From Halalkaliarchaeum sp. AArc-CO (GTDB lineage Archaea; Halobacteriota; Halobacteria; Halobacteriales; Haloferacaceae): DNA of 64,000 nt. Every line of letters starts with the position of its first letter. Position 1 is the stretch's first letter. Position numbers and translations under genes: made by a program. The notes under the pieces are model-generated. The model did not search any database. It saw only the letters and a list, made by a program, of their open reading frames with translations, and was not told the DNA's origin. The DNA lies in NCBI RefSeq assembly GCF_024972735.1, contig NZ_CP087723.1, forward strand, positions 682,001 to 746,000, written 5' to 3'. Below, piece after piece: positions 2,998 through 13,348 of the stretch.

Positions 2998-3020
2998 TTT
3001 TATGTTTAGGGTGGCCTAAA
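2998..3020 (+). promoter_or_regulatory. TATA-like element and DtxR/SirR-type operator
   Basis: The inverted repeat TTTAGG-GTGG-CCTAAA (3005-3020) sits directly behind a TTTTATG TATA-like element and ends 8 bases before the ATG at 3029. A bound repressor here would cover the transcription start. The half-sites match the TTAGG/CCTAA pattern of DtxR-family iron or manganese repressors. The same 16-bp arrangement (TTTAGGNNGGCCTAAA) recurs at 4783-4798 before the FeoA-fusion gene. Confidence 0.7.
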
Positions 3021-3028
3021 TCATACGT

Positions 3029-3664
3029 ATGGGCCGGCTCGGGAACACTGTCGCGAGGCTGGAGAAGTCGTGTTCGGTCGCTCCGCGGCTGTTTGATCTC
3101 TACACTCGTCTGTACCGTTCGGTCGTCGACCGGGAGATCGAACTAGCGGAAATCGACGAGGACGATGTAGTTCTCAATGTCGGTTGTGGTGCGATGCCAT
3201 TTACGGCTGCACTACTCGCGAAACGGTCCGGGGCGACCGTGTACGCGCTCGATCACGACCAGAGCGTGGTTCGGGAGGCGCGCCGAAACCTCGCACGTGC
3301 CGGCGTCGCCGACGACGTCGAGGTCGTCGTGGGGGACGGCAGGGAGGTCGTCGGTGACGGCACCCAGCTTCCGGAACCCTGTTCGGTGGCTATTGTCGCC
3401 TTGCAGGCGGAACCGAAAGACGATATCGTCGATCGGTACCGACGGACGCAGGGCACCCCGAGCCGAGTAGTCGTCCGTCAGCCGCGGCCCGCGTTCTCGG
3501 CCGATTACGATCCGGTGACCACGGAATCGCGAGACGTCGCGTGCGACGGTGGCTGCTCGTCGACGTTCATCGCTCCTTCGAGAGACACCTCACCGTCGCC
3601 GGCTGACGCTGTTTCACACTGGATGGTAACGTTCGATCGATCGCTCCTGTTCCGGACGGAATGA
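3029..3664 (+). CDS. Nicotianamine-synthase-like SAM-dependent enzyme
   Basis: A 211-residue class I SAM-fold protein. The glycine loop VGCGAMPFT (51-59) is followed by an acidic strand end (LDHD), and a second acidic GDGRE motif comes after it. The form GxGxxPxT, rather than the usual GxGxG, is characteristic of nicotianamine synthases (GSGPLPLT in plants). The next conserved part (ALQAEPKDDIV, then VVVRQPRPAF) also follows the NAS order. It is shorter than typical NAS. A Cys pair (CDGGC) lies near the C-terminus. It heads the iron block, directly behind the operator, and its stop overlaps the next ATG (ATGA). Product unknown: a plain methyltransferase remains possible. Confidence 0.6.
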   Translation: MGRLGNTVARLEKSCSVAPRLFDLYTRLYRSVVDREIELAEIDEDDVVLNVGCGAMPFTAALLAKRSGATVYALDHDQSVVREARRNLARAGVADDVEVVVGDGREVVGDGTQLPEPCSVAIVALQAEPKDDIVDRYRRTQGTPSRVVVRQPRPAFSADYDPVTTESRDVACDGGCSSTFIAPSRDTSPSPADAVSHWMVTFDRSLLFRTE

Positions 3665-4728
3665 AGCGGAAGATCGCGCTGTGGGTGATCGGATTTGCGA
3701 CCCTGATCGGGTTGCTGTGGATCGCAGGATGGTCGGAGGTCCGGACTGTACTGGGCAGGTTCTCTCCCGGGATGCTTCTCGGGCTCCTCGCGTTGCAACT
3801 CGTCACACTCGGGCTCATCGCCTACCAGTGGCACTACGTGCTCCGGCGCGCGGAGATCCCGCTTCCGTTTTCCGAGGTCCTCGCCGTGAACCTCGCTGGG
3901 GGGTTCGTCGAGAGCGTTACTCCCTCCTCGAAACTCGGCGGCGAAGCCGCGAAAGTGTACCTGTTCCGTCGGCTGACCGGCGCCGGATACGACGAGGTTT
4001 CCTCGGCGTTGGTGGTGCACAAGTACGTCTCACTGGTTCCGTTCTTCCTGTTGTGTGTGGGGATTGCCGGTTTCGCCGGGATACGGACGGACGTGACGGT
4101 TTCTACGACCGCCTCGCTGGGACTGCTGGTCGTTGCGTTGTCGGCGACGGTGTTGACTGTCGCCCTCCATCGAGGATCGACGGCCGATCTGCCGGTCGGA
4201 CGTTCGCCACTGTCTGGATCGCGGGTCAGGTCGACCGTGGGAACGATGGAACGTCTGCTCCCTCGGCGGATACGGCGATCGATCGATGGAGCGACGGGAT
4301 TTCTTCGGCGGGCCCTTTCGAATGCCGGATCCCTGCTGACCGCTGCCGATCGTCGGTGGCTGTTTCTGGTCTCGTTTTTCGTCTGGGGACTGTACCCAGT
4401 CAAAATACATCTGGTGGCGCTGATGCTGGGGATCGACGTCGGGTTCGAGGTCGCGGCAGTTGGGACGATTCTCGCGTATCTCGTCAGTATCGCACCGCTT
4501 TCTCCCGGTGGGACCGGAACGTTCGAAGGGACACTGGCGGTGATCTTTCTGGCTGGGGGTGCCACGTTTTCGGAAGGGTTCACAGTCGCGATACTCTCGC
4601 GTGTCGTCGTGTTCTGGTTTCCGCTTTTGTTGTCTGCAGCGGCGGCGGCGTGGCTGGTGTCCTCGGATCACCGGCTCTCACCGGATGGACTGGAACTTCC
4701 GGTCGGTACCGCTCGTTTTCGGGAGTGA
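3661..4728 (+). CDS. UPF0104/LPG-synthase-TM flippase-like membrane protein
   Basis: Polytopic membrane protein of 355 residues with about eight hydrophobic segments. It has the family's TPSSKLGGEAAKVYLF loop in the first third and SPGGTGTFEG in the last third. These mark the lysylphosphatidylglycerol-synthase transmembrane region family (YbhN/UPF0104, the flippase half of MprF and the membrane half of AglD). The family is linked to moving polar lipids or conjugates across the membrane; the substrate here is unknown. The ATG overlaps the preceding stop (ATGA), so it is translationally coupled to the NAS-like gene. Membership of an iron-regulated unit is unusual for the family. Confidence 0.8.
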   Translation: MKRKIALWVIGFATLIGLLWIAGWSEVRTVLGRFSPGMLLGLLALQLVTLGLIAYQWHYVLRRAEIPLPFSEVLAVNLAGGFVESVTPSSKLGGEAAKVYLFRRLTGAGYDEVSSALVVHKYVSLVPFFLLCVGIAGFAGIRTDVTVSTTASLGLLVVALSATVLTVALHRGSTADLPVGRSPLSGSRVRSTVGTMERLLPRRIRRSIDGATGFLRRALSNAGSLLTAADRRWLFLVSFFVWGLYPVKIHLVALMLGIDVGFEVAAVGTILAYLVSIAPLSPGGTGTFEGTLAVIFLAGGATFSEGFTVAILSRVVVFWFPLLLSAAAAAWLVSSDHRLSPDGLELPVGTARFRE

Positions 4729-4782
4729 ACTCCGGTCGATCGTCGCTGTTTTCACGCAGTGGGAACCCGCTCCCGCATTTAA

Positions 4783-4798
4783 TTTAGGAGGGCCTAAA
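4783..4798 (+). promoter_or_regulatory. Second DtxR/SirR-type operator
   Basis: The inverted repeat TTTAGG-AGGG-CCTAAA is a near copy of the element at 3005-3020 and lies 24 bases before the GTG start at 4823. It argues that the FeoA-fusion/feoB pair has its own iron-responsive promoter. Confidence 0.7.
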
Positions 4799-4822
4799 GA
4801 TACGGATACAGGTCGATCCTCC

Positions 4823-5869
4823 GTGACGAATACAGACGGACAACGAGAGCGCGACGACGCAGCGACTGGGGGCGTCGAGTCCGGTTCCAGTGCGGTAGCC
4901 GCGAGTGCGGGCGTGTTGAAACGTCTCGAACGGCTGGACCGGGTGTCGTGTACGTTCGGAAACCTCTACCGTCGGCTATTCTACCAGGACGTCATCGAGC
5001 GGGAACTGGGCCTCGTCGGGCCCGACGACGACGCGTCGGTGCTCCAGGTCGGCTGTGGCCCGTTGCCGATGACCGCGATGGCGTTGGCCGAACACGGCTA
5101 CGACGTCCTCGCGATTGACAACGACCCCGACGCGATCGACGCCGCCCGCCGGGCGGTCGAGAGCCGGGGACTCTCCGAAAAGATCGACCTCGCTGTGGGC
5201 GACGGCCGGACGCTCGAGACTGTCTCCTTCGACGTGATCTGGATGGCGTTTCACGTCCACCCGAAGGCGGAGATCGTCACCGAAACCATGTCACAGCTCC
5301 ATGCGGGACAGACGCTCGTCTATCGCCGGCCGCGGGACTGGGCCAGTACGTTGTTTCCAGACGCCGAGGCGCCGTCGGGAGACGTCTCCTCGGAGACGAT
5401 TACCCACCGGTTCGGCAAGGAAAGCGTGGTCGTCTGCAACGACCCCACCGACTGTGTCGGCTGTTCGGACGCGCCGGACTGTCCGGCGTCGCAACCGACC
5501 GCGGATACGGAGGCGTCTCCGGCAGCTGCTGCCGACGGGGGAACTGTTGCTCGCGGCGGATCGGCCGGCGGATCGTCCGGCGGATCGGCCGACACCCCGA
5601 CGGCGCCGGAGGGCCCCACACTCGAGTCGCTGGACGACGGGGAACACGCCGTCGTCAGCGGCGTTCCGGATCACGACCTGTTGTCGCCGCTCGGCGTCCG
5701 ACCCGGGAATTCGGTCCGGGTTCGAGGACGACAGCTGTTCGGGGGGCCGTTGATCGTGGAAGCAGACGGCCGCCGGGTCGCGATCGACCGAACACTCGCC
5801 GACAACATCCGGGTCGAACGCGAGGAGACGGACCACGATTCGAACCCGAATCTCGATGTCCCGTCGTGA
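4823..5869 (+). CDS. NAS-like SAM enzyme fused to a FeoA domain
   Basis: A 348-residue fusion. Residues 60-180 are a SAM fold with VGCGPLPMT (76-84), LAIDNDP and GDGRT. Then come WMAFHVHPKAEIV and LVYRRPRDWASTLFPD, which follow the order of the C-terminal nicotianamine synthase signature (LAALVGM..K..., then RSAHG.R.FLYP). A cysteine cluster follows (C205, C211, C214, C220), then a Gly/Ser linker. Residues 272-332 are a FeoA/SH3-like domain (GEHAVVSGV..., GVRPGNSVRV). FeoA domains partner FeoB. I chose GTG 4823 because the longer frame back to 4559 runs through the upstream gene and the operator. The end overlaps feoB by 14 bases. Domain fusion and context imply iron-ligand work at the membrane; the product is unproven. 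Confidence 0.7.
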   Translation: MTNTDGQRERDDAATGGVESGSSAVAASAGVLKRLERLDRVSCTFGNLYRRLFYQDVIERELGLVGPDDDASVLQVGCGPLPMTAMALAEHGYDVLAIDNDPDAIDAARRAVESRGLSEKIDLAVGDGRTLETVSFDVIWMAFHVHPKAEIVTETMSQLHAGQTLVYRRPRDWASTLFPDAEAPSGDVSSETITHRFGKESVVVCNDPTDCVGCSDAPDCPASQPTADTEASPAAAADGGTVARGGSAGGSSGGSADTPTAPEGPTLESLDDGEHAVVSGVPDHDLLSPLGVRPGNSVRVRGRQLFGGPLIVEADGRRVAIDRTLADNIRVEREETDHDSNPNLDVPS

Positions 5870-7598
5870 GGGGACGGTCGAGGAAACGGCCGACTCCGCA
5901 TCCACCCGCGTCGCGCTGATCGGCCCACCGAACGTCGGAAAGAGCGTCCTGTTCAATGCGCTGACCGGGCTCGACGCGGGGATCGCGAACTATCCCGGTA
6001 CGACTGTCGAGTACAAGCGGGGGACAGCCACGTTCAGAGGCGAGGAGGCGACCCTGATCGACGTCCCGGGGACGTACTCGCTCGCGGCGACCAACGAGGC
6101 CGAACAGCTGGCCGTCGACATCCTTGAGGGCGGCTGTGACGCCGTCGTCTGCGTGCTCGATGCGGCAAATCTCGAGAGTAGCTTACATCTCCTGTTGCAG
6201 GTGCTCGAACACGACGTGCCGACCGTCGTTGCGGTCAACCGCGTCGACCTGCTGGAGGAAGGGAGAACGCTCAGGCCGGAGGTGCTCGCTCGAGAGCTGT
6301 CGGTTCCCGTGATCCCCACAGTCGCGACGATCGGAAAAGGGTTCGAAGAACTCGTCGACGCCGTGGCCGGCACGCTCCGGAACCCGACCGCTCCCGGAAC
6401 GGACGAGGCAACCTGGGATCGTGCCGAGACACTCGCGGAGAGTGCGATCGTCGACGAATCGTCCGGTGAACCCCTCCCCGAAGGGCGGTTACAGCGGTGG
6501 GGTGACAGGCTCGTCGAACCGTGGCCGGGCCTGCCCGTTGCGCTCCTGGTGCTCGTGGGAACGTTCGCGATTGTCGTCGGGGTCGGGATGGGAATGCGTC
6601 AGTATCTCCTCGTCCCGTTTTTCGAGAGACTGGTGTTTCCGGTGATCGAACGCGCGGTGCGATCGGTCACGGAACCGGGGATGTTCAGATCTGTACTGAT
6701 CGGCGAATACGGCTTTCTGATAAAGGGGATCGAGTGGCCGTTCGCGCTCGTGATGCCGTACGTGATCTCGTTTTACATCGCATTGAGCCTGCTGGAGGAC
6801 AGCGGTTACCTCCCACGGCTTGCGGTGCTGCTCGACGGATTGTTTGCCCGGATCGGATTGACGGGGAGCAACGTGGTCCCTCTGCTTTTGGGCTACGGCT
6901 GTGCGATCCCCGGGATCACCGGTACCCGGGCGGCCGAGACGTACAAACAGCGGCTCTCGATCACGCTCATGATCTGTCTCGCGGTGCCCTGCGTGGCCCA
7001 GACCGGGGCGTTCATCGCGTTGCTCGCCGAGGCAACGATCTTCCTCGTGATTGCGGTGTTTTTCGTGTCGTTTCTCGCGCTCGCCACGGCCGGAGTCGTC
7101 CTCGATCGGGTTCTCGAAGGGGACCGGAGTCCGACGGTCGCCGACGTCCCGCCGCTTTTGATCCCGAAGGCCCACATCACGATGAAGAAGGTCTGGATGC
7201 GGCTGAAACACTACCTGTTCGGCGGCGCGATCCACATGATCTACGCGATCGGGGCGGCGTCGCTTTTGTACGAGCTGGGCGTCCTGGAACTCATTGGCGA
7301 GTATCTTCGTCCACTCGTCGTCGGCTGGCTCCTCTTGCCGGAGGAGGCGGCGACGCCGCTGATGTTGGGCATCGTCAGGCGCGAACTGACGGTGTTGCCG
7401 TTGCTCGAGATGGATCTCTCGACGGGACAGCTGTTCGTCGGCGCGATCGTCGGCCTGTTTTACGTCCCCTGCATCGCGGTGTTCGCCACCGTCGCAGAGG
7501 AGTTCGACATCCGGATCGCCGCCGTCGTCCTCGTGTTGACGATGGGGGTTTCCTTCCTTCTCGGCGGGCTGATCGCACAGACGCTCGCACTCTTTTAA
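5856..7598 (+). CDS. feoB: Ferrous iron transport protein FeoB
   Basis: 580-residue FeoB. The N-terminal G domain has G1 GPPNVGKS (23-30), G3 DVPGTYS (69-75) and G4 NRVD (128-131). The C-terminal half is a membrane domain with about eight hydrophobic segments, including the LLGYGCAIPGITGTRA gate motif and a second YVPCIAVFATV gate repeat (FeoB signatures with Cys). FeoB imports Fe2+ at the cytoplasmic membrane using GTP/NTP hydrolysis. It overlaps the FeoA-fusion gene and is presumably controlled from the operator at 4783-4798. It is somewhat shorter than bacterial FeoB (about 770 residues) but of normal archaeal size. Confidence 0.95.
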   Translation: MSRREGTVEETADSASTRVALIGPPNVGKSVLFNALTGLDAGIANYPGTTVEYKRGTATFRGEEATLIDVPGTYSLAATNEAEQLAVDILEGGCDAVVCVLDAANLESSLHLLLQVLEHDVPTVVAVNRVDLLEEGRTLRPEVLARELSVPVIPTVATIGKGFEELVDAVAGTLRNPTAPGTDEATWDRAETLAESAIVDESSGEPLPEGRLQRWGDRLVEPWPGLPVALLVLVGTFAIVVGVGMGMRQYLLVPFFERLVFPVIERAVRSVTEPGMFRSVLIGEYGFLIKGIEWPFALVMPYVISFYIALSLLEDSGYLPRLAVLLDGLFARIGLTGSNVVPLLLGYGCAIPGITGTRAAETYKQRLSITLMICLAVPCVAQTGAFIALLAEATIFLVIAVFFVSFLALATAGVVLDRVLEGDRSPTVADVPPLLIPKAHITMKKVWMRLKHYLFGGAIHMIYAIGAASLLYELGVLELIGEYLRPLVVGWLLLPEEAATPLMLGIVRRELTVLPLLEMDLSTGQLFVGAIVGLFYVPCIAVFATVAEEFDIRIAAVVLVLTMGVSFLLGGLIAQTLALF

Positions 7599-7644: not shown

Positions 7645-8370
7645 TCACACGTCGGATTCGATGGTTCCGGCCGACATGCGGACGAATCCACCGAACGCTC
7701 GCCGGCTCACCACGCCCTCACAGCGCTCGTGTAGCGTCCGGTGACCCGCCAGAACGCGCTCGTCGAGCAACTGTGCGGCGCACCGGGTTCGTCCCTGTCC
7801 GCCCGGCGGTGAACTCGCACGTACCAGCGCAGCGAAAGCCGGATTGCCGAGTCGACCTAGCGGGGTCGTGCTCCGGGCGAGGTTGCACAGCCCCAGTCGG
7901 CCGCCTTCGCCGGCGAGCTTTGCCCACGCTTCGACTGCGCCTCCCGGATCGGGAAGCATTCCGACGACGAACGTCGCGAGCACGACGTCGACTTCTCCGA
8001 CCCCGAGTCCGAGTGACTCGGAGGGAACCGCCGTCGACTCCCCGACGAACGGTGGGCGGGTCGCGTCGCCCCGAACCACGTGGACGTTCTCCCAGCCGTG
8101 TCGACGAATCCGGTCGTGCGCCCGCTCGAGAACTCCTTCCGAGAGGTCGACGCCGACGACGGTTCCCTCCCGGCCGACACGGTCCCGGAGCCACGGGAAG
8201 TTCGCCCCGGTACCACAGCCCATCTCGACGACCACGTCCCCGCGGGACGGCGAGAGGAGGTCGAGGAACGTCGACCGCATCCGGACGACGCCGGGGGCGT
8301 CGCTGGCGATCCGGTCGTAGACGCCGGCCCATCGGGTGTAAAACGATCCCGGGGTGGAGCGATCACTCAC
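7645..8370 (-). CDS. Class I SAM-dependent methyltransferase
   Basis: About 241 residues from the GTG at 8370. UbiE/COQ5-like features: FYTRWAGVYDRIA at the start, motif I VVEMGCGTGAN, the post-I acidic GVDLSEG, and a DVVLATFVVGMLPDP strand. The start is set by overlap: GTG 8370 lies 8 bases inside the end of meaB (GTGAGTGA), so the gene is coupled to it, while the longer frame to 8607 only shadows meaB. Substrate unknown. The C-terminal region (LCNLARSTTPLGR) is like haloarchaeal UbiE-type paralogues. It is last in the mutase-accessory operon. Confidence 0.8.
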   Translation of the reverse strand: MSDRSTPGSFYTRWAGVYDRIASDAPGVVRMRSTFLDLLSPSRGDVVVEMGCGTGANFPWLRDRVGREGTVVGVDLSEGVLERAHDRIRRHGWENVHVVRGDATRPPFVGESTAVPSESLGLGVGEVDVVLATFVVGMLPDPGGAVEAWAKLAGEGGRLGLCNLARSTTPLGRLGNPAFAALVRASSPPGGQGRTRCAAQLLDERVLAGHRTLHERCEGVVSRRAFGGFVRMSAGTIESDV

Positions 8371-9469
8371 GGTTGTCGTCGAGACACTTCTCGATCGGTG
8401 CGACGATCCGTTCGGCCACCGCGTACGGGTCGGTCTCCCGCCGGGCCACCCGCTCGGCGAGTCGGTCGATCCCTCCGTGGCGATCCAGCTCCCGTTCGAC
8501 GAGCGCCGCGACGTCGTTGCGGAGCAGCGTCCTGATCCCCTTCGCGTACCTGTTTTCGATCTTCTCTTCGAGCTCTCCTGACGCCTCGAGGTGCGCGTAG
8601 TGGGCATCGATCAGTTCGAGCAGTTCTTCGATCCCGTCGCCGGTCGTCGCGACGGTTTCGACGACCGAGGGGTTCCACTCTGGCTCTTTCCCGTCGGTCG
8701 GTTCCTCGCCGTCGACCGACTCGATCCTCTCCGTCGGGCCGTCTCTGCTCGCGTCTCCGTCTCCGGCCTCGATCGACTGGAAGCCGTGGTGGCCGGTGTT
8801 CAGTCCGGCGGTGGGGCTGTCCCGCATGTGGAGCATCTCCTCGAGTTCGGCGACGGTCCTGTCTGCACCCTCCATGTCGGCCTTGTTGACGACGAACACG
8901 TCGCCGATTTCGAGGATTCCCGCCTTGAGCATCTGTACGTCGTCGCCCGACCCGGGCTGGACGAGGACCGCGACGGTGTCGGCGGTCTCGACGACGTCGA
9001 CCTCGTTTTGCCCGGCGCCGACCGTCTCGATTACGATGCGGTCCTTCCCGAACGCGTCCAGCGCCGTCACTGCGTCGGCGGTCGCCATCGAGAGCCCACC
9101 CAGCTGCCCCCTGGCGCTCATCGACCGGAAGAATACGTCCATGTCGCCGACTGTCGAGGCCATCCTGATCCGGTCGCCGAGCACCGCGCCGCCGGTGTAC
9201 GGAGAGGAGGGGTCGACCGCGATCACGCCGACCGTCTCCCCGCGATCGCGGTAGCGTTTCGCCAGCTTGTCGACCAGCGTCGACTTCCCTGCTCCGGGAG
9301 AGCCGGTGACGCCCACGATCTGTGCGTTTCCGGCGTGTGTGTGAAGCCGGGAGACCAGCTGTCTGTACCCCGGCCGCCTGTTTTCGATCTTCGAGATGAC
9401 CCGCGCGAGCGCCCGATGGTCGCCATCGAGCAACTCGTCGACGAGGTCGGTCTCGGTACCCCGACTCAT
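8363..9469 (-). CDS. meaB: Methylmalonyl-CoA mutase-associated GTPase MeaB/ArgK
   Basis: 368-residue G3E-family GTPase that protects and reloads B12-dependent methylmalonyl-CoA mutase. Walker A is GSPGAGKS (56-63), followed by the family's AVDPSSPYTGGAVLGDRIRM, RGQLGGLS and the ETVGAGQNEVDV segments, then NKAD as the base-recognition motif. Compared with bacterial MeaB it carries a long acidic insertion (about residues 215-260, rich in Asp/Glu/Gly) before the C-terminal helices, a common halophilic expansion. It sits directly downstream of the mutase B12 subunit, 4 bases apart, and overlaps the methyltransferase gene. Confidence 0.93.
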   Translation of the reverse strand: MSRGTETDLVDELLDGDHRALARVISKIENRRPGYRQLVSRLHTHAGNAQIVGVTGSPGAGKSTLVDKLAKRYRDRGETVGVIAVDPSSPYTGGAVLGDRIRMASTVGDMDVFFRSMSARGQLGGLSMATADAVTALDAFGKDRIVIETVGAGQNEVDVVETADTVAVLVQPGSGDDVQMLKAGILEIGDVFVVNKADMEGADRTVAELEEMLHMRDSPTAGLNTGHHGFQSIEAGDGDASRDGPTERIESVDGEEPTDGKEPEWNPSVVETVATTGDGIEELLELIDAHYAHLEASGELEEKIENRYAKGIRTLLRNDVAALVERELDRHGGIDRLAERVARRETDPYAVAERIVAPIEKCLDDNRE

Positions 9470-9473
9470 GCGG

Positions 9474-9890
9474 CTACCGCTCCGGGACGTTCTCCCTGAC
9501 GAACGAGATCGTCTCCTCCATCGGCGTTCCCGGACCGAACACCTCCGAGACGCCGAGTTCCTTCAACTCCTCCTCGTCGTCGTCGGGGACGATCCCTCCG
9601 ACGAGCACGAGGGTGTCCTCGAGGGCGCCGTACTCCGCGAGGCCGTCGAGCACCTTCGGGACGAGCGTGTTGTGTGCCCCCGACAGGATGGAGATTCCCA
9701 GCACGTCGACGTCCTCCTGGACGGCCGCCTGCACGATCTCGTCGGGCGACCGGTGAAGCCCCGAGTAGATCACCTCGAACCCGGCGTCCCGGAACGCCCG
9801 GGCGATGACGTGTGCCCCCCGGTCGTGGCCGTCCAACCCTACCTTCGCCACGAGACACCGGACGGTCCGCTGTTCCTGGTCGACGCTCAT
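9474..9890 (-). CDS. Methylmalonyl-CoA mutase, B12-binding small subunit
   Basis: 138 residues forming a stand-alone cobalamin-binding domain. DGHDRG (20-25) is the DxHxxG cobalt-ligating motif, followed by the SGLHRSPDEIV and GISILSGAH (S-x-L) and VLVGGIVP (GG) signatures of the B12 Rossmann domain. In archaea the mutase is split and the catalytic subunit is encoded elsewhere; it is not in this window. With MeaB it supports methylmalonyl-CoA/succinyl-CoA interconversion. It is first in its operon; the upstream gap to 9989 is a shared divergent promoter region. Confidence 0.93.
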   Translation of the reverse strand: MSVDQEQRTVRCLVAKVGLDGHDRGAHVIARAFRDAGFEVIYSGLHRSPDEIVQAAVQEDVDVLGISILSGAHNTLVPKVLDGLAEYGALEDTLVLVGGIVPDDDEEELKELGVSEVFGPGTPMEETISFVRENVPER

Positions 9891-11947: not shown

Positions 11948-13348
11948 TCACGCGTCGTGACCGTCGTACGATTCGATCCGTTTCCGGAGGCTCGGATCGA
12001 TCGCCGGCGGCTCGTACCGGTCCAGCAACGTCTCGACGCGAGCCTGCGCGCGTTCGACGGCCGACCTCCCGCTCACGTTCGGGCTATCGCCGGCATCCCG
12101 AACCGCGAGATCTGGACGGAACAGTGACTTGCGGGCGTGTTTGACGGTGTGGCGAGCGCTCAAGAAATCCCCGTCCGGGGAGGTTTCAGCCAGCAGCGCT
12201 CCGGCGATCGTCTCCCCTGTGACGTCGATCCCCTGCCGGATCCGCCGGATCGCTCGGATCCGTTCACAGTCCAGCAGAAACTTCTCCGGGGATACCGCCC
12301 GGTAGGAATCGAGGATTCCGACCGCGTGCAAGGTGAAGTCGATTCCGGCGTCGATACCTGCCAGCAGGCCGAGCATCGATTCGGAGCCCGCCTGGTCGTC
12401 GAGCCGCTTTGCGTCGGTCACCCCGCCGCCGCCCCGGCTCGGCAGGTTGTACGATCTCGCCAGCTGGGCGGTCGCGGCCGCTCCGAGCGCCGCCTCGGGG
12501 GCCGCCGCAGCGATCGATGTCGTTTCCATATCGAGGGCGGTGAGCGCAGATCCGTACACGACGGGTGTCCCAGGGTTTTCCAGCTGTGCGAGGACAATCC
12601 CCGAGAGGATCTCGGCGTTTGCCAGAATCACCGCGCCCGCGAGCGTCGCCGGGGCGGAGGCGCCCGCGAGCGGCTGGGACATCACGATCACCGGCTGTCC
12701 ACGCGCGGCGTACGTGAGCAGCCCTGCAGCCATCGCCTCGGGCCAGCGGCGCGGCGAGACGGGCGACACCTGGCCGAGCACGCGCGGCCGGGTGAGATCC
12801 GGGTCGTCGGCCGCGATCCCGGCCAGTTCGAGACATTCCTGGGACCGACGGCGCCCGTACGCTGATCCGACGACGGGAAGGTCGGTCGTCAGCAGGGTCC
12901 GCTTCATCGATTCGCGGGCACGCTGCGGCTCCGGCACGTCCACCGGTTCACAGACGTTGTATCCGGCACAGTCGACAACGTCCTCCTCGTGAGCGAGCCT
13001 GGCGAACGTCTCGACGTCGGCAAGTGTCGCTTCCCGGAACCCGTCCCCTTCGGTGTACAGTTCGGTCGGTCCGAACGCCGGGGCGAACACCGGTTCCCCC
13101 TTGCCGACGACCACCGCGTCGCCGTTGCGAGTGTGCAGTGTGAACGACTCCGGTGCCCGATCGATCGACTGTTCGAGCACCGGTTCGGGGATCCGAACTG
13201 TCGTCCCCGACACCTCACAACCGCCTGCCGAGTATCGGTCTCTGGCTGTTTCGTCGGCGACGTCGACGCCCTGGTTCGACAGCAGTTTCACCGACTCCTC
13301 GTGAATTCGGGAGAGCTCGGTTTCGTCGAGTGGTGCAAAAAGCGTCAT
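11948..13348 (-). CDS. Trimethylamine methyltransferase (MttB) superfamily protein, non-pyrrolysine
   Basis: 466 residues of the MttB/MtgB family, which demethylate quaternary amines onto a corrinoid protein. It has the family's SNQGVDVADE N-terminal region, and the barrel motif GGGGVTDAKRLDDQAG in the region where methanogen MttB carries an amber-encoded pyrrolysine. No in-frame TAG is present, so this is the non-Pyl group, whose substrates include glycine betaine and other betaines or carnitine. No corrinoid protein or reactivating ATPase lies next to it. It is divergent from an SDR gene, with a perfect palindrome between them. Substrate unknown. Confidence 0.88.
   Translation of the reverse strand: MTLFAPLDETELSRIHEESVKLLSNQGVDVADETARDRYSAGGCEVSGTTVRIPEPVLEQSIDRAPESFTLHTRNGDAVVVGKGEPVFAPAFGPTELYTEGDGFREATLADVETFARLAHEEDVVDCAGYNVCEPVDVPEPQRARESMKRTLLTTDLPVVGSAYGRRRSQECLELAGIAADDPDLTRPRVLGQVSPVSPRRWPEAMAAGLLTYAARGQPVIVMSQPLAGASAPATLAGAVILANAEILSGIVLAQLENPGTPVVYGSALTALDMETTSIAAAAPEAALGAAATAQLARSYNLPSRGGGGVTDAKRLDDQAGSESMLGLLAGIDAGIDFTLHAVGILDSYRAVSPEKFLLDCERIRAIRRIRQGIDVTGETIAGALLAETSPDGDFLSARHTVKHARKSLFRPDLAVRDAGDSPNVSGRSAVERAQARVETLLDRYEPPAIDPSLRKRIESYDGHDA

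Follow-up and report, generated by a model that had tools for sequence, protein, structure and literature searches.

The locus described here raises the question of why a gene for the transporter FeoB should stand beside two genes for enzymes that resemble nicotianamine synthase (NAS) and a gene for a flippase-like membrane protein. It is located in a 64,000-nucleotide stretch of the Halalkaliarchaeum sp. AArc-CO genome (contig NZ_CP087723.1, positions 682,001 to 746,000), which is referred to as the window. Its features, all of which lie on the forward strand, are given below in window positions.

3005-3020 (+): operator TTTAGGGTGGCCTAAA, palindrome TTTAGGN4CCTAAA, ahead of the NAS2-flippase unit
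3029-3664 (+): NAS2, short NAS-like S-adenosylmethionine (SAM)-fold protein of 211 amino acids; AlphaFold (AF2) model best matched by MtNAS; tree clade N2
3661-4728 (+): flippase-like membrane protein of 355 amino acids (PF03706 / TIGR00374)
4783-4798 (+): operator TTTAGGAGGGCCTAAA, palindrome TTTAGGN4CCTAAA, ahead of the NAS1::FeoA-feoB unit
4823-5869 (+): NAS1::FeoA fusion of 348 amino acids with a GTG start (PF03059, PF04023)
5856-7598 (+): FeoB of 580 amino acids, NAS-linked subtype (VPCVAQTGAF, GIVRRELTVLP), with FeoB_N, Gate and FeoB_C domains

These genes are a real, conserved and probably iron-regulated set. The function that we favour, with slightly better than even confidence, is that of an iron-repressed module for Fe(II) acquisition, comprising a NAS-type ligand, a flippase and a dedicated FeoB.

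Gene linkage and the FeoB subtype

The link between the NAS-like genes and feoB, which had been proposed in the first-pass annotation of this sequence, is well supported. NAS1 adjoined feoB in 17/17 loci read (G000, which is the window genome, G052, G129, L102, L103, L105, L119-L128 and L284). NAS1 was fused to FeoA in 10 of them, and the two were separate genes in the 7 loci of Desulfonatronospira and Dehalococcoidia. A flippase gene was found near NAS2 in 17/17 loci (the window, L069-L073, L102, L103, L105, L120, L121, L124, L125, L184-L186 and L284); in the f22 genomes, it was located on the far side of feoB relative to NAS2. Some of the loci in both sets are near-copies. The neighbourhood genes were called as mechanical open reading frames (ORFs), and the hidden Markov models (HMMs) applied to them were built from the window genes together with the related ones of G052, G129 and G182. 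Loci L119-L128 were found with the NAS1::FeoA alignment, by which a nearby FeoA was partly ascertained and FeoB and the flippase were unaffected.

The order NAS2-flippase-NAS1::FeoA-FeoB was kept in G000, G052 and G129; of the 194 genomes in the class sample, two besides that of the window thus conserve it. The NAS1::FeoA fusion, and with it NAS1, was present in 3/194 genomes. The module is rare in the class, and the earlier wording, which spoke of haloarchaea in general, was too broad. The module extended past the class to Thermoplasmatota, other families of the phylum, Dehalococcoidia and Desulfonatronospira. A scan of genome contigs gave 11 loci, namely 3 from Thermoplasmata, 5 from Desulfonatronospira, 2 from Dehalococcoidia and 1 from Anaerolineales; the last (L129) does not belong to this type of locus. 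The smallest complete modules, in G377 and G195, consisted of a single NAS, FeoA, FeoB and the flippase, and in G336, one NAS accompanied FeoAB at the end of a contig. Since the fusion was found at 9 loci besides this one and several further genomes carry the operators, the locus is neither a matter of chance nor an assembly artefact.

The gene features of the window agreed with what had been claimed from the first reading. Two SAM-fold proteins with GxGxxPxT loops were present (VGCGAMPFT in NAS2 and VGCGPLPMT in NAS1), and NAS1 also contained HVHPKAEIV and YRRPRDWASTLFPD, a tail in the order of the NAS signature. NAS1 was confirmed to be joined through a Cys cluster to FeoA and to overlap feoB: the NAS-like core occupied approximately residues 26-213, the Cys cluster 205-220 (C205, C211, C214 and C220, invariant in 3 aligned copies) and the C-terminal FeoA domain 266-333 (PF04023, 51.7 bits, cut-off 23), and the start of feoB overlapped the end of the fusion gene by 14 nt. 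The coupling of the flippase-type gene to NAS2 was likewise borne out by a 4-nt overlap (ATGA) and by the match of its product to PF03706 (149.5 bits, cut-off 33.4). This protein also exceeded the TIGR00374 cut-off (101 versus 43.2 bits), as did 5 homologous proteins encoded at related loci. Neither it nor these homologues reached the more specific NCBIfam cut-offs (MprF, GlcN_PG_flip and HpnL), the matches to these models being weak. Judged by its family, the protein is lipid-flippase-like, and lipid flipping itself is predicted. The Cys cluster was considered as a core metal site but is regarded as accessory, because it was absent in G231 and G354. No PDB sequence match at E ≤ 1 was obtained for protein P0003, and no tblastn match to NAS1 at E ≤ 0.001 was found among 72,556 plasmid records.

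The spread of short NAS-like proteins was explored with a profile of 24 family members (A2). In 294 genomes of the window's own phylum, short NAS scored at least 148 bits, full-length NAS approximately 56-83 bits and other proteins at most 55 bits, so the last two ranges touch. The profiles A2, A3 and A4 match their own members by construction; the short NAS of G195 and G336, which were outside the profile, scored 177 and 148 bits, respectively. Short NAS was found in 1 of the 247 genomes from the phylum of Desulfonatronospira (G443), two others being matched at 51-65 bits, and in 59 of 243 genomes of the Thermoplasmata phylum sample.

Three results on linkage weigh against the proposed module. 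The G199 gene (L106:7399-8010, reverse strand) belongs to the Feo-linked NAS clade described below and had no feo or flippase gene within about 7 kb, and its genome gave no FeoB match at E ≤ 1e-20. Among 20 further Thermoplasmatota loci from 19 of the 59 genomes with short NAS-like proteins, G828 alone was a Feo module and 19 lacked feo and flippase genes; the absence of feo at some of them is weak evidence because the stretches were short (3.1 to 14 kb). Moreover, the NAS-like, flippase, FeoA and FeoB families were the only ones that recurred across the module loci, where the neighbours were not all screened for metallophore enzymes.

Two kinds of locus outside Feo contexts were also observed. 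NAS2-flippase pairs without feo genes in the stretch read occurred at 6 loci. One is a second pair in the window genome (L073:7415-10056; G000:C2 ~2805400-2808100), without an operator and beside genes that by eye resemble those of cobalamin synthesis; the others are in G052 (L072), G182 (L071) and Desulfonatronospira (L184-L186). Short NAS-like genes of Thermoplasmatota (L285-L302) also stood outside Feo contexts, and at L287, L293, L295 and L298 their neighbours included UbiA prenyltransferases, B12-binding radical SAM proteins, AMP-dependent ligases and an ornithine-carbamoyltransferase-like gene. These Thermoplasmatota loci are possible unexplored biosynthetic clusters.

The FeoB of the module is a distinct, NAS-linked subtype. 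The window protein exceeded the Pfam cut-offs for FeoB_N (152.3 bits), Gate (95.7 bits) and FeoB_C (28.9 bits), and it remained under the cut-off of the equivalog TIGR00437 (303.1 versus 315.65 bits). Its gate motif was VPCVAQTGAF in place of the canonical CGARLP. The pattern PCx[AS]Q[TS]GA was present in 11/11 module FeoBs aligned and in 0/25 other FeoBs compared, which comprised the 2 second FeoBs of f22 genomes, with SCGARLPV, and the 23 FeoBs that ranked next in the phylum scan, with PCx[AS][QK]xAM; 2 of the 25 came from genomes with NAS. With a profile built from the module FeoBs, scores of 874.5-918.6 bits were obtained in 7 of 288 genomes, all of which carried short NAS, and the next score was 603 bits. 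In the FeoB tree, the support by the Shimodaira-Hasegawa-like approximate likelihood ratio test (SH-aLRT) was modest for the module clade (78) and was 97 for the clade of the 23 others, at whose loci (3.4-4.7 kb) no NAS or flippase HMM match was found. The NAS-linked protein was the sole FeoB found in the window genome at E ≤ 1e-20. In two f22 genomes, a canonical FeoB with SCGARLPV lay a few kb from the NAS-linked FeoB (L102:1721-3841 and L103:11748-13868).

Relationship of NAS1 and NAS2 to nicotianamine synthase

The profile test against the NAS family PF03059 gave a split outcome for the assignment made in the first-pass annotation. NAS1 scored 31.4 bits (cut-off 27.1) over profile positions 122-243 of 276, by which the C-terminal segment was covered, but a higher score was obtained with Methyltransf_25 (40.4 bits) and NAS2 of the window gave no PF03059 match at E ≤ 1. 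At E ≤ 0.001, PF03059 was matched in 4/194 genomes of the class sample, 2 of them above the cut-off, and the same 4 genomes carry NAS1 and/or NAS2; there was no match in the other 190. The matches were 3 NAS1 genes and the NAS2 gene of G182. In sequence searches of the PDB, MtNAS ranked first for NAS1 (4e-7) and the staphylopine synthase CntL next, and the result was the same with a 3-sequence profile. In a profile-profile comparison (hhalign) with 8 full-length NAS, which were those of 21 loci that passed the length filter, the probability was 99.3 for the local alignment (template 96-239 of 284) and 99.6 for the global alignment (89-284).

The catalytic residues were compared with those of solved and mutated enzymes. 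Glu81 and Tyr107 of MtNAS deprotonate the acceptor amine (PMC10491745), and the AtNAS1 counterparts E77 and Y106 are essential (PMC10248798). Y54 of NAS1 (P0001) was aligned to Tyr107, and this column was Tyr in 40/40 sequences. The GxGxxPxT loop, the Tyr107 position, an xPK segment and one invariant Arg were common to NAS1, NAS2 and NAS. The sole candidate for Glu81 was an invariant Glu (Glu36 in NAS1), mostly in an LE context, at 17-18 residues before the Tyr.

The AF2 models of NAS1 (pLDDT, the predicted local distance difference test score, 86.3) and NAS2 (85.7) were compared with the PDB, as the first reading had proposed, and among solved structures MtNAS came first for both, by a narrow margin for NAS1 and a clear one for NAS2. 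For NAS1, Foldseek placed MtNAS first at 9.6e-12 and the best non-NAS structure at 1.6e-9. The VIA comparison of NAS1 gave Z values of 19.4 for MtNAS (182 aligned residues, 3.2 Å), 18.6 for the methyltransferase 3t7s (167 aligned residues, 2.7 Å) and 18.3 for CntL. For NAS2, the corresponding values were 19.4 for MtNAS (183 aligned residues, 3.0 Å), 17.4 for CntL and 16.1 for the best non-NAS structure. The VIA-aligned ranges began at chain residues 21-25; part of the helices of the N-terminal domain was therefore matched.

Several of these results weigh against a NAS assignment, and they bear on a different explanation, under which NAS1 and NAS2 would be ordinary methyltransferases with FeoB, FeoA, a lipid or some other protein as their target and would resemble NAS as any two Rossmann methyltransferases resemble each other. 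Methyltransf_25 was the top methyltransferase-type Pfam match for NAS1, and it was matched by 23 of the 24 A2 members, versus 19 for PF03059 at E ≤ 0.01 (some below the cut-off). In addition to lacking a PF03059 match, NAS2 gave an RNA methyltransferase as its top PDB sequence match (9e-9), followed by a precorrin enzyme (2.8e-5) and then MtNAS (4e-5), and 5/6 NAS2 copies were missed by the PF03059 class scan. In the VIA comparison, MtNAS and 3t7s are tied for NAS1, since the lead was less than 1 Z. The short NAS core spans 188-211 amino acids, compared with a NAS length of approximately 265-275, and the N-terminal helical domain of NAS was mostly missing. Furthermore, Glu81 fell in a gap when the proteins were aligned with the 8 full-length NAS in MAFFT and was paired with other residues by hhalign. 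The common loop, Tyr, xPK segment and Arg argue against ordinary methyltransferases, as do the 3-Z lead of MtNAS over non-NAS structures for NAS2, its Foldseek lead of two orders of magnitude for NAS1 and the silence of PF03059 in the 190 other class genomes. This explanation was judged doubtful. It is well supported that NAS1 and NAS2 are relatives of NAS; they are called NAS-like on the strength of a profile-profile match in which most of the N-terminal domain is missing, and full membership of the family is not supported, given the mostly absent domain and the unaligned Glu81.

The relationships were explored further in a 58-row tree rooted at the midpoint, in which N1 and N2, each with a G828 sequence, formed separate clades (99/97 for both). 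Each clade included members from the window class, f22, Thermoplasmatota, Dehalococcoidia and Desulfonatronospira. N1, N2 and the four single NAS of G377, G195, G336 and G199 formed one mostly Feo-linked clade (94/89), to which neither full-length NAS nor the remaining Thermoplasmatota homologues belonged. In an earlier tree without ordinary methyltransferases, the support was 89/95 for N1 and 98/93 for N2. The rows were trimmed around the SAM loop, the N-terminal extensions of the G052b and G000b NAS2 proteins being cut at chosen places. The near-copies L121 and L125 were excluded from the trees, and 19 of 26 short-NAS ORFs of Thermoplasmatota were taken into the 58-row tree, from which one without the motif was dropped to leave 18. 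A tree that included 12 ordinary methyltransferases was set aside because long branches met in it and N1 was not one clade. Since N1 and N2 each span the same lineages, the NAS1/NAS2 pair is older than its present patchy spread, and the tree suggests transfer of the pair between lineages. Apart from the short proteins, the full-length NAS genes in other families of the phylum (L108-L112, L117 and L118) were often paired or in triplets.

Operator and proposed function

The palindrome TTTAGGN4CCTAAA occurred exactly twice in the window (3005 and 4783), just upstream of NAS2 and NAS1, and 0 times in 100 dinucleotide-preserving shuffles; the reported presence of the same operator at both promoters was thus corroborated. 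The same palindrome was present at the promoters of the NAS2 orthologues of G052 and G129, and upstream of NAS1, G052 had the identical 16-mer and G129 a copy with one mismatch. In Thermoplasmatota, a perfect palindrome preceded NAS2 in the near-copies L120 and L121 and lay between the divergent units of G828, and a copy with one mismatch was located upstream of NAS1 in L119-L121. The f22, G377, G195, G336, G199, Dehalococcoidia and Desulfonatronospira loci gave no exact match to the operator (TTAGG, 2-8 bases, CCTAA), and TTAGGN2-6CCTAA was likewise missing where G000 and G052 carry their second NAS2 copy and at the NAS2 locus of G182.

The shorter form TTAGGN4CCTAA had 7, 12 and 5 sites in G000, G052 and G129, respectively, versus 3, 3 and 0 for the reversed pattern. 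Five of the 24 sites were at NAS promoters, and 12 of the other 19 preceded ABC-transporter genes, which encode SBP_bac_6 and BPD_transp proteins (G000 and G052; the binding protein only in G129), an ABC_tran/TOBE_2 ATPase (G000) and Peripla_BP_2 and FecCD proteins (G052). To judge from their families, these carriers may take up iron. Idr1 and Idr2, of the SirR/DtxR family, act in the iron homeostasis of Halobacterium (PMC11349517), and a repressor of the Idr1/Idr2 type may bind the palindrome. The operator and the remaining places where it occurs make the iron regulation that was proposed earlier likely, but the point is qualified by two results that weigh against it: 7 of the 19 other sites had no transporter gene among the families tested (one preceded an Lrp-type regulator, in G129, and six had none of the genes tested), and proteins of the SBP_bac_6, BPD_transp and TOBE families are not confined to iron transport.

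The same data bear on the alternative that the module handles another divalent metal (Mn, Co, Ni or Zn) and not iron. Plant nicotianamine handles Fe, Zn, Ni, Cu and Mn (PMC10341464), the FeoB gate motif departs from the canonical one, and the extra NAS2-flippase copy lies beside the apparent cobalamin synthesis genes. However, the operator is shared with the SBP_bac_6/BPD_transp genes and FecCD-type ABC transporter genes, and the DtxR-family regulators Idr1 and Idr2 serve iron homeostasis in Halobacterium (PMC11349517). A metal other than iron is regarded as quite unlikely.

In the favoured reading, Fe(II) acquisition, a DtxR/Idr-type repressor at the palindrome would leave both units on when iron is scarce. 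NAS1 and NAS2 would then transfer a 3-amino-3-carboxypropyl (aminobutyrate) group from SAM to an acceptor, giving a small metal-binding ligand; NAS and CntL form metal ligands by moving this aminocarboxypropyl group of SAM onto amines (PMC10491745). The flippase-like protein would carry this ligand across the membrane, either as such or bound to a lipid, and iron would be imported by the dedicated FeoB subtype, to which NAS1 would be tethered through the FeoA domain. The chemistry, the identity of the ligand, the direction of flipping, the side of the membrane, the repressor and its metal, and the form in which FeoB takes its substrate (Fe(II) or a complex) are all points that we infer, as are the formation of a ligand and its movement or loading at FeoB, which the first reading had proposed. 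The kinship in fold and sequence, the preserved gene linkage, the common operator with the genes at its further sites and the FeoB subtype are computational findings. The ligand may be free outside the cell, anchored there to a lipid, or in the cytosol at FeoB.

The tether is of particular relevance to the cytosolic location, in which NAS1, held by FeoA, would make or present a chelator that receives Fe(II) on the inner face, or would gate FeoB according to SAM, and the flippase would serve elsewhere. FeoA of B. fragilis interacts with the G domain of FeoB (NFeoB) in a nucleotide-dependent manner (PMC8980893); hence, the fusion would hold NAS1 at FeoB and should place it adjacent to that domain on the cytosolic side. 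The Cys cluster between the NAS1 and FeoA domains in 3 aligned copies fits this arrangement. Against it, the flippase was near NAS2 in every locus read for it, including the 6 without feo in the stretch read, and it was part of the two smallest complete modules with their one NAS. NAS1 and FeoA were also unfused in Desulfonatronospira and Dehalococcoidia, and G231 and G354 lacked the Cys cluster. An inner-face ligand was considered quite unlikely.

A lipid-anchored metallophore was also weighed and was considered rather unlikely. NAS2 would add an aminocarboxypropyl group to a lipid, the flippase would turn it to the outer leaflet, and its chelating head group would hand Fe(II) to the co-evolved FeoB. 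To our knowledge, PF03706 proteins act on lipid substrates and not on metallophores, which weighs against the favoured reading. The betaine-lipid enzyme BtaA carries out the same transfer onto a lipid and is seemingly not homologous to NAS, according to a review (PMC10491745); the lipid version is thus without direct precedent in the NAS family. Lipid contact through the N-terminal helix was also tried as an indication and was rejected, as the hydrophobic moments were high in short NAS and equally high in some ordinary methyltransferases. If true, a lipid metallophore would be a mode of iron uptake that dispenses with a free siderophore and a bare Fe(II) channel alike and has spread between archaea and bacteria.

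Other genes were noted downstream in the window, all on the reverse strand. A methyltransferase-like gene lay beside feoB (7645-8607), two genes at 8363-9890 resembled by eye those for a MeaB-type GTPase and for the methylmalonyl-CoA mutase subunit that binds B12, and a trimethylamine-methyltransferase-like gene was present at 11948-13348, with matches in 185 plasmid records, the best being a Halomicrococcus gene so annotated (45% identity).

Comparison with known systems

MtNAS (3fpe, 3fpj and 3o31; PF03059) is resembled by NAS1 and NAS2 in the fold, the GxGxxPxT loop, Tyr107 and the xPK segment. The proteins of the module differ from it in their core of about 190 residues instead of approximately 265-275, in the mostly absent N-terminal domain and in the unaligned Glu81, and also in their occurrence as two paralogues, the fusion to FeoA and the linkage to feoB and a flippase. 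In the 11 neighbourhoods of PF03059 matches (L108-L118), no feoB or flippase linkage was detected with the HMMs, a partial hit at L116 excepted. CntL is partnered by an opine dehydrogenase and its own importer, whereas the recurrent neighbours of NAS1 and NAS2 are the flippase, FeoA and FeoB. It is the next solved relative of the NAS type and makes its metallophore by SAM-dependent aminobutyrate transfer (PMC10491745).

With respect to FeoAB, the FeoA and FeoB domains of the module exceed the Pfam cut-offs, but FeoB has PCx[AS]Q[TS]GA instead of SCGARLPV and FeoA is fused to a NAS-like enzyme. The flippase of the module is like the PF03706 flippases (TIGR00374), exceeding both cut-offs, and we know of no PF03706 protein tied to metal uptake. 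FeoB is usually described as acting on bare ferrous iron. It is the main Fe(II) importer of prokaryotes (PMC8980893). Among the titles and abstract openings listed by searches of open-licence articles, none described a NAS-Feo module, an absence that carries little weight. The module would join NAS-type chemistry to Feo transport, and its recurrence in unrelated archaea and bacteria suggests an undescribed route of iron uptake. A FeoB subtype lastingly linked to NAS-like enzymes and a flippase-like protein across several lineages of archaea and bacteria would mean that some FeoBs use a made-to-measure ligand, and it would bring nicotianamine-type chemistry to the archaeal class of the window. 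Moreover, the role of FeoA would become directly testable through its fusion to an enzyme, a feature by which this module differs from both MtNAS and FeoAB.

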